Shown here in pieces: positions 19,326-38,508 of a stretch of 44,922 bases of DNA (position 1 is its first letter; every line of letters begins with the position of its first letter). Source of the stretch: Methanobrevibacter olleyae (lineage in GTDB: Archaea; Methanobacteriota; Methanobacteria; Methanobacteriales; Methanobacteriaceae); NCBI RefSeq assembly GCF_900114585.1, contig NZ_FOTL01000016.1:1-44922 (forward strand), read 5' to 3'. The position numbers were made by a program, and so were the translations under genes. Under the pieces are notes generated by a model, which saw only the letters and a program-made list of their open reading frames with translations, did not search any database and was not told the origin of the DNA.

Positions 19326-20159
19326 TTATAAAATCAATTTATCAACAGCGTGAATAAATTGATTTGCTCCAGTTTCCAAACTGTAATCTGGGTTTCCACG
19401 CATTTCAAATACAATAGCTGGAACTCCCCCTTCATCTATAGGAATTGTAGAATACTGTGGACTTGAATAACTTGCAGGTTCATAGTAAATAATATTCTTT
19501 AAAGTCTTTGTTATATTATTTGCAGAATCATAAGCAACTAAATCTGTAGAAATAGGTGCAAATATATAAGGATCCTGTACATAGCCACCATTTGAAGAGT
19601 GAATATCAATAGCTAGATTATAATTGTTTTTCACCACATCATTAACAACAAAATTTTGAGCAAGCAATTGGCCATTCATCCTACTTTCTTCAAAATCCTC
19701 GCTTTCAGCGCTGACATTAATCCTATAAACATAATAAGAATAATTCAAGTAATCAGAGGAATTTAAAAGACTTTTATAAATTGCATCATGAGCATTAGAT
19801 TCTCTTGGGTGCTGTCCTAAAATATATGCAATTTTTACTGAAGATTTGTTATTACCATAAGGCCCTTCAAGAGTTACAGTTCCTATACTATTTTTACCAA
19901 TGGTTTTAATTGGTTTTTGTGATGTTGACAAATCTGTAGAATTAGAGTTTGTTAAATCTGTTGGAATATATTTTAAAACATTATTTAAAATAGGGTAATC
20001 ATCAGAAATATATTGTAATAAGCTGTCTTCACTTGTTGCATAGTCATAACAAAGAATAAAGCCCTCTGCAAGTATGACAATTAAAATGATTAAAAAATAG
20101 AGTAAGTTTTTAGAAGGTTTTTTTGATTTTTTCTTTGATTTTTTGTCTTCATTATCCAT
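19326..20159 (-). CDS. Membrane-anchored M14-like metallohydrolase
   Basis: A 277-residue protein. A Lys-rich cytoplasmic N-terminus is followed by one transmembrane helix (about 20-38, LLYFLIILIVILAEGFIL), then an extracellular domain from about 85. Zinc ligands of the M14/succinylglutamate-desuccinylase type are visible: His117 and Glu120 in GQHPRE, His187 in IDIHSSNG. A likely catalytic glutamate is Glu252 in VFEMRGN. The family cleaves C-terminal amino acids or N-acyl amino acids. An outward-facing form could act on pseudomurein peptides or dietary peptides, but this is inference. ATG start with SD GGTG. Confidence 0.65.
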   Translation of the reverse strand: MDNEDKKSKKKSKKPSKNLLYFLIILIVILAEGFILCYDYATSEDSLLQYISDDYPILNNVLKYIPTDLTNSNSTDLSTSQKPIKTIGKNSIGTVTLEGPYGNNKSSVKIAYILGQHPRESNAHDAIYKSLLNSSDYLNYSYYVYRINVSAESEDFEESRMNGQLLAQNFVVNDVVKNNYNLAIDIHSSNGGYVQDPYIFAPISTDLVAYDSANNITKTLKNIIYYEPASYSSPQYSTIPIDEGGVPAIVFEMRGNPDYSLETGANQFIHAVDKLIL

Positions 20160-20364: not shown

Positions 20365-20469
20365 TTATTTTTTCCAAGTTTGTTTAACTCCTCTTCCTTT
20401 TTTACTACCTGGCTTTTTGTAAGATCTTTTAGGTCTAGTTCTTTTATTGGTTCCTTTTACCTTTGCCAT
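20365..20469 (-). CDS. 34-aa highly basic microprotein
   Basis: A short frame begins MAKVKGTNKRTRPKRSYKK and ends GVKQTWKK before TAA. About half of the residues are Lys or Arg, with no acidic residue. The SD is excellent (AAAGGAGG, 6 bp from the ATG at 20469). The composition suggests RNA or ribosome binding, but no family is recognised. It sits alone between the M14-like gene and argJ with AT-rich gaps on both sides. Confidence 0.65.
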   Translation of the reverse strand: MAKVKGTNKRTRPKRSYKKPGSKKGRGVKQTWKK

Positions 20470-20819
20470 AATAATCCTCCTTTAATTTTTGATAATAATA
20501 TTATTTAACAAGACTAATCTATAAAATAATATTGATAAAATAATAAAATAGAAATCATCATATTAAAGTAAATATGATATAATTTTATATAAAAAAAGCT
20601 TTAATAATAAAACCTAATAAAATATTTATTTTTAAGTTATATAAACTTTACCCATAAATATTTTAAAATAATGCTAAAAACCTTATAAATTAGATTACAA
20701 ATATAAATCAAATAATATTAATGAAAATAATGAATAAGATTCAAAAAAAATGAATATAATTAAAAATTTTAAAAGAGAATATAAAATTAGTAGATATATG
20801 CTAGTTTTTTAACTGTTTT
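20470..20819. other. Intergenic: microprotein promoter region
   Basis: About 350 bp of AT-rich DNA holding the microprotein SD and, presumably, its promoter. A plus-strand TATA-like CCTTATAAATTAG near 20689 faces no recognisable gene. Confidence 0.4.
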
Positions 20820-37649: not shown

Positions 37650-37796
37650 TTAGTGTTCTTTTACTTTTTTGCTTTCTTTATTATTACAACATCCGAAGAA
37701 AAAGTTTCTTATTTTTTTAACTTCAGATTTCTTTCCTTTTTCTATTTTTTCATTCCTTTCATGAATTTTCTTTCTTGCTTCAGCCATGTTTCCCAT
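37650..37796 (-). CDS. 48-aa charged microprotein with CC motif
   Basis: Begins MGNMAEARKKIHERNEKIEK. The middle has FFFGCCNNKES and it ends KKVKEH. About 40% charged residues flank one aromatic/Cys patch. SD AAGGTGA lies exactly 4 bp before the ATG (37796), the spacing seen for other genes here, and a T-run follows the TAA. No family is recognised. The paired cysteines beside Phe residues could be a metal site or a membrane-surface patch. It converges on the PHP gene with about 50 bp between stops. Confidence 0.65.
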   Translation of the reverse strand: MGNMAEARKKIHERNEKIEKGKKSEVKKIRNFFFGCCNNKESKKVKEH

Positions 37797-38291: not shown

Positions 38292-38390
38292 TTATCTTCT
38301 AAAAGATACAACTTTTGGATCTCTTTTTCTTTCTCGATTAGTAGGTTTAATTTGTTTCTTTCCACAAATTCCACTTTTGCTTCTTCCCAA
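38292..38390 (-). CDS. 32-aa basic microprotein downstream of a palindrome-flanked promoter
   Basis: Reads GRSKSGICGKKQIKPTNRE after the start and ends DPKVVSFRR. Very basic, with one Cys. A near-perfect SD, GGAGGTGA (38402-38395), precedes it. The ATG at 38393 is only 1 bp from the SD, while the next codon, TTG at 38390, is 4 bp away, the spacing used elsewhere in this window, so TTG is preferred (33 residues if ATG). A TATA box and a DtxR-like palindrome lie about 120-165 bp upstream. The function is unknown; the composition suggests nucleic-acid or ribosome binding. Confidence 0.6.
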   Translation of the reverse strand: MGRSKSGICGKKQIKPTNRERKRDPKVVSFRR

Positions 38391-38508
38391 CATTTCACCT
38401 CCGAGAATTTAAAGATAGAAGCACATAAAATTTTAAGAACTGGAGATTTTCATTTTTGGAGTGATTTATGACAATATTTAGTTTGTACTTGCAGAGCCAG
38501 TCCTTAAA

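Follow-up and report, generated by a model that had tools for sequence, protein, structure and literature searches.

A conserved, strongly basic 34-residue microprotein of Methanobrevibacter and its close relatives is a candidate small ribosomal protein

We interrogated a short open reading frame in a 44,922-nucleotide stretch of Methanobrevibacter olleyae DNA, the whole of which is called the window below, and found that it is a real gene, strongly conserved in Methanobrevibacter and in close relatives of this genus. The gene lies on the minus strand (20365-20469, ATG to TAA), is supported by the open reading frame list, by orthologues and by purifying selection, and encodes the 34-residue protein MAKVKGTNKRTRPKRSYKKPGSKKGRGVKQTWKK. 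On balance, this microprotein is probably a small constitutive protein of the ribosome, or one tightly associated with it, that is specific to the Methanobrevibacter/Methanosphaera family; we infer this candidate role from its composition, conservation, distribution and codon usage. The initial annotation had described a Lys/Arg-rich frame of 34 residues that lacks acidic ones, and the frame is present as described (20469 to 20365, minus): 15 of its 34 residues are basic (11 Lys and 4 Arg), and Asp and Glu are absent. Family proteins are 30-35 residues long and strongly basic. Acidic residues are absent from 34 of 38 distinct members, and the remaining four carry one Glu in the C-terminal tail.

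The Shine-Dalgarno sequence at ideal spacing, also proposed in the initial annotation, is AAAGGAGG (20476-20483, minus), with 6 nt from GGAGG to the ATG, and an SD-like core of 5 nt precedes the gene in 89 of 92 distinct orthologous sequences comprising upstream region and gene. Reading by eye, we place a putative BRE/TATA element, AAAGC followed by TTTTTTTATATAAAATT (20581-20602, minus), about 112 nt ahead of the ATG. The AAAGC-TATTTTTATAAA block is mostly retained across 11 distinct upstream regions of the genus, with locus L010 as the clearest exception.

We examined the distribution of the gene with three kinds of search. Among genomes of the order with a completeness of at least 97%, the microprotein is present in all 41 from the window's family (f1), as expected for a housekeeping part, and in none of the 11 from two sister families (f2 and f3). 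Using tblastn against 60 relatives, we obtained a match at E<=1 in 34, with strong matches (E<=2.1e-8) in 29 of the 36 f1 genomes, no match at E<=1 in the 13 genomes of families f2-f4, and weak matches (E 0.012-0.27) in 4 of 11 other archaea. A profile search of 149 genomes of the phylum gave matches at E<=1 in 126; 121 of these are strong, all in f1, and the other five are weak (E 0.07-0.49). A degenerate codon pattern run against 84,980 named genomes returned 81 stretches, whose titles name Methanobrevibacter, Methanosphaera, Candidatus Methanovirga, Candidatus Methanoflexus and Methanobacteriaceae archaeon, together with three 'archaeon' records from horse faeces. Since this pattern requires exact residues, the lack of Methanobacterium among the 81 stretches is not proof of absence. 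The initial annotation, which named the lack of any homologue and of a transcript as grounds for giving up the microprotein, holds on the first point, orthologues having been found by tblastn, profile and codon pattern alike. The conservation across Methanobacteriales that it proposed to check by tBLASTn was confirmed within one family and not in the rest of the order that was searched.

One strong match per genome is the rule; some genomes have two, at contig ends. In genus g17 the microprotein occurs as two intact, diverged copies (loci L088 and L089; L146, 1795-1887; L147, 3091-3183), with two matches each in G034, G083 and G102; in G034 both copies are intact, the second with a weak SD. 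The metagenome-assembled genome RUG648 has the gene twice, each time at a contig end (L085 and L112). We also looked for argJ, the upstream neighbor in the window, in nine family genomes that lack a strong match, with G000 as a control and six other f1 genomes without a strong profile match left aside, and found it in 7 of the 10. In G002, argJ lies 15 bases from the contig end, in G007 the contig stops 2 bases past the argJ match, in G134 a stretch of N lies beyond argJ, and the search missed argJ altogether in G014, G010 and G122; assembly gaps could account for these six absences. In G029, G031 and G111, argJ is present and the microprotein gene is not beside it. Relatives of G111 (genus g16) have the gene elsewhere, while no copy was found in G029 (96% complete) or G031 (84%), a point against the ribosomal reading. 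Eight weak matches, in G042, G048, G037 (two), G039 (two), G006 and G051, were picked out from the weak tblastn and profile matches for inspection; none has a start codon together with the family N-terminus, and we judged them to be chance matches.

The gene codes for a protein under strong purifying selection. Its 81 distinct DNA sequences translate into 38 different proteins, one of which is specified by 20 of them. Grouped by length class, the pooled Nei-Gojobori dN/dS is 0.137 (49 sequences), 0.233 (13), 0.163 (12) and 0.122 (6), computed from 80 of the 81 sequences, one of unique length being omitted, and from pairs that are non-independent. For the nine sequences of the type found in the window's genus, pS is 0.24 and pN 0.003, and, measured against the window, the other eight have 7-10 synonymous changes each and a single non-synonymous change, Lys to Arg. 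A protein that stays nearly invariant across orthologues with many synonymous changes is more than chance would produce. In a 19-sequence alignment, M1, K3, G6, T7, K14, Y17, K19, G21, K23, G25 and R26 are invariant (11 of 35 columns), and the tail is variable. K5, N8, R10, T11 and R12 are also invariant in the window protein and 28 loci found with the codon pattern, a partly circular result since the pattern itself fixes several of them. The distinct-sequence, dN/dS, upstream and SD counts draw on 137 loci, of which a regular expression captured 125; of the 12 others, five (L030-L034) are not of the family, and seven carry the codon pattern and are missing from these counts, presumably owing to contig ends or deviating residues. 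Loci with genome handles and named loci overlap, so a genome may appear twice, and identical DNA was merged for the distinct-sequence and dN/dS counts.

The microprotein matches no described family convincingly. With the 33 residues that follow the first Met, a PDB search found no match for the window protein and Pfam gave it no family at E<=10; 10 other members likewise gave none. The profile brought up one PDB match at E<=10, to 1i3j, a DNA-binding chain of I-TevI; it spans 13 residues and, with E=1, is at chance level. When 19 members were scanned, the window protein with its full 34 residues, the Pfam S21 family (PF01165) matched weakly in 2 (best E 0.0067) and the NCBIfam model S21p in 1 (E 0.028). 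The window protein is among the 17 without a PF01165 match, and we rejected membership of bS21. Membership of bTHX was rejected on the Pfam result at E<=10 for the window protein and 10 others, Pfam presumably including a Thx model; so was AT-hook membership, for which we likewise assume that Pfam holds a model, although a motif so short may escape detection. Descent from eS30 was rejected as well: PF04758 exceeds its cut-off in none of the 49 genomes that belong to the window's order and class, and in 2 of 60 genomes overall, both outside them, and the frame of a weak match in G029 (E 0.73) overlaps, on a by-eye reading, a presumed iron-sulphur protein gene. Kinship with the genome's own ribosomal operon proteins fared no better, with a best profile score of 4.1 bits, below the 8.5 of shuffled controls. 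AlphaFold2, run on 29 rows, gave a mean pLDDT of 68 and a pTM of 0.21, with no helix of 4 residues and no strand of 3. The microprotein is not described among the matches listed by a literature search that mostly left out subscription journals, and a search by terms within PMC12605026 yielded nothing on unassigned small proteins.

Codons of the microprotein gene seem to resemble those of the ribosomal-protein operon more closely than those of window genes. The gene scores +0.070, against leave-one-out means of +0.075 for the operon (104 segments) and -0.099 for window genes (288 segments); 55 of the 104 operon segments and 22 of the 288 window segments score at least as high (leave-one-out). 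The operon set consists of 23 ORFs chosen by position and strand, possibly including non-ribosomal genes. In a control that keeps the peptide the same, window codons give P=0.040 and operon codons P=0.42 (lower tail), from 32 codons only. The other eight distinct genus-type orthologues score 0.167-0.258, and all nine 0.07 to 0.26, with codon tables built from this genome alone and applied to other species.

In the window, ArgJ (PF01960, E 2.9e-134) is the same-strand neighbor upstream, in agreement with the initial annotation, whose 'M14-like hydrolase' label for the downstream gene (19326-20159, minus) was not confirmed, that gene having no Pfam family at E<=0.01. Relatives of the downstream gene also occur at L014, L023 and L089. 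Over 31 hand-chosen loci, neighbors include argJ and a nitroreductase (PF00881) and, named by eye, dihydroxy-acid dehydratase, a cyclic diphosphoglycerate synthetase-like protein, an acetyl-CoA synthetase-like protein and a PAS histidine kinase; translation genes are not among the named neighbors. Of 117 loci, among which genomes recur and from which 8 short ones were omitted, 60 have the C-terminal motif of argJ no more than 500 nt upstream. No conserved operon was found across the 31 loci. Because neighbors vary between genera, the microprotein gene stands alone, tied to no single operon.

How would such a protein act? We propose that the microprotein, an unstructured chain of about 30 residues rich in Lys, Arg and Gly, inserts into a pocket of the rRNA, where it would neutralize phosphate and stabilize the rRNA structure around it, much like bTHX in the head of the bacterial 30S subunit. 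The invariant K3, G6, T7, K14, Y17, K19, G21, K23, G25 and R26 would make the rRNA contacts, the variable C-terminal tail would be exposed at the surface, and the microprotein would fold only within rRNA. A short unfolded basic chain with a conserved core, family-wide presence and apparently ribosomal-type codons fits a small ribosomal protein. Against this reading stand the lack of a PDB ribosomal match, the weak S21 matches as the only family signal, a likeness to operon proteins below that of shuffled controls, and the lack of translation genes among the named neighbors; the composition also fits DNA binding. The likeness to small ribosomal proteins noted in the initial annotation agrees with the composition, the lack of fold and the codon usage, and makes ribosome binding a candidate role.

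bTHX (Thx) is a stand-alone protein of the bacterial 30S subunit, about 26-30 residues long, almost wholly basic and without an independent fold. It appears to be the closest analogue in size and make-up: both have a stand-alone gene, a similar size, a basic chain and no fold of their own, and filling of an rRNA pocket is what we propose for the microprotein. They differ in that bTHX is bacterial and that the microprotein, whose rRNA site is hypothetical, has no Pfam family at E<=10. A likeness, seen by eye, to the C-terminal tail of bS21 (PF01165) consists of basic residues around an aromatic-x-Lys-Pro motif, but the microprotein is too short for the S21 helices, and we know of no bS21 in archaea. 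eS30 (PF04758) is likewise a small basic 30S protein and resembles the microprotein, by eye, in a start near K-V-x-G, but it has no match over the cut-off in any of the 49 order and class genomes. Lineage-restricted archaeal ribosomal proteins have precedents in aL45-aL47 (PMC10516650) and in aS33 and aS34 of Saccharolobus solfataricus, earlier unannotated, nearly confined to some Thermoprotei orders and detected by cryo-EM and mass spectrometry (PMC11698992). Like the microprotein, aS33 and aS34 are lineage-restricted, were overlooked by annotation and have genes outside one operon; unlike it, they were seen on the ribosome and are found nearly only in Thermoprotei (PMC11698992), whereas the microprotein is known from its genes.

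Other roles for a basic chain of this kind deserve consideration. The microprotein could serve another RNA particle or assembly step as a subunit or cofactor, in RNase P, SRP, a modification-guide RNP, or ribosome biogenesis or hibernation; its basic nature, universality in the family and ribosomal-type codon use would suit this equally, but no gene of that kind is linked to it among the named neighbors and no family match is convincing, and we regard this as possible yet unlikely. We are somewhat more doubtful of a role in the nucleoid or chromatin, as an extended basic peptide that lies in the minor groove of very AT-rich DNA beside the histones. Basic residues together with Gly and Pro, the lack of fold, the AT-rich DNA (the GC content of the window is 25%) and the chance-level 1i3j match would fit such a role, but Pfam offers no family for the window protein or the 10 others, and position-specific conservation over most of the chain seems to suit a defined pocket better than bulk coating of DNA.

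Two further readings are far less credible. High positive charge and small size would fit a secreted cationic antimicrobial peptide or the toxin of a toxin-antitoxin pair, but the sequence, read directly, has no hydrophobic signal-like stretch, no constant partner recurs across the 31 loci, and presence in the family is universal rather than patchy, which makes this reading very improbable. Least likely of all is that the stretch is no protein gene, whether the ORF is spurious or the RNA conserved yet untranslated, as its brevity and its AT-rich intergenic setting might suggest: start, frame and protein are retained while third positions vary, the 20 DNA sequences for one protein and the gap between pN and pS point to coding, and an Rfam scan of the window gave no match at the gathering threshold.

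The candidate ribosomal protein is accompanied in the window by other microproteins. The initial annotation had listed some at 37650 and 38292, and both are conserved in the genus: a 48-residue product (37650-37796, minus) is matched in 13 of 31 genomes, its own included, and a 33-residue basic product with one Cys (38292-38393, minus) in 14 of 31, its own included, all in the genus, from a sample that covers the genus and two sister families only. The two genes lie within about 0.7 kb of each other in the 13 genomes with both.

Finally, we compared the promoter region in a related genus, g5. In many g5 loci, a BRE/TATA-like block, GAAAACCTTTAAATATC, directly follows the argJ stop and is itself followed by the near-constant AAAACAAATATTTTTTTGTTAT; the 24 distinct upstreams compared were picked for holding CTTTAAATA, so conservation of CTTTAAATA there partly reflects that choice. 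Among four closed g5 genomes, AAAACAAATATTTTTTTGTTAT with at most one mismatch is found at the gene in one. We rejected the inverted repeat in this upstream region as a regulon operator: within the closed genomes it occurs at the gene in G067 alone, G065 has a single match elsewhere with one mismatch, and G060 and G073 lack it, which means that even in g5 the motif is not general.

The sole IMG/VR contig with the codon pattern, L137, has the gene near its end. Its upstream region equals that of some g5 hosts (e.g. L118) through GAAAACAAATATTTTTTTGTTAT and diverges beyond, by eye, with TTAATATATAATG on the far side of the junction in place of the host TATA-like element. An integrase ORF (288-1451; PF16795, E 8.2e-7) adjoins the junction; it shares 48% identity, over 86%, with the integrase annotated in Methanobrevibacter gottschalkii virus vir075. 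From this one example (L137, 1-1451), in which a provirus end with its integrase abuts the microprotein promoter, we propose AAAACAAATATTTTTTTGTTAT as the attachment site, and the core promoter of the microprotein as the site of attachment in those g5 strains. The motif occurs once in the L137 record (at most one mismatch), so the other junction is not seen. In L129 (RUG593, a metagenome-assembled genome), the TATA block and the last part of argJ, about 40 nt in all, are absent, by eye, just ahead of the same motif, owing to a deletion, an excision scar or an assembly error. L112 (RUG648) is identical to L137 over the 175 nt available, and RUG648 perhaps mixes strains with and without the provirus. 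It would be a long shot that all parts of a larger scenario hold, in which a new ribosomal protein born in this family has, in part of g5, a promoter that is the attachment site of a methanogen virus, so that integration swaps the host TATA for a virus-borne TATA-like element and lysogeny could reset expression.

Should the microprotein not be ribosomal, its gene is still near-universal in the family, probably well expressed, and undescribed in the profile libraries used. If it is ribosomal, it would extend the protein set of the ribosome in the principal methanogens of the human and ruminant gut, and be a further case of archaeal ribosomes gaining small proteins lineage by lineage.
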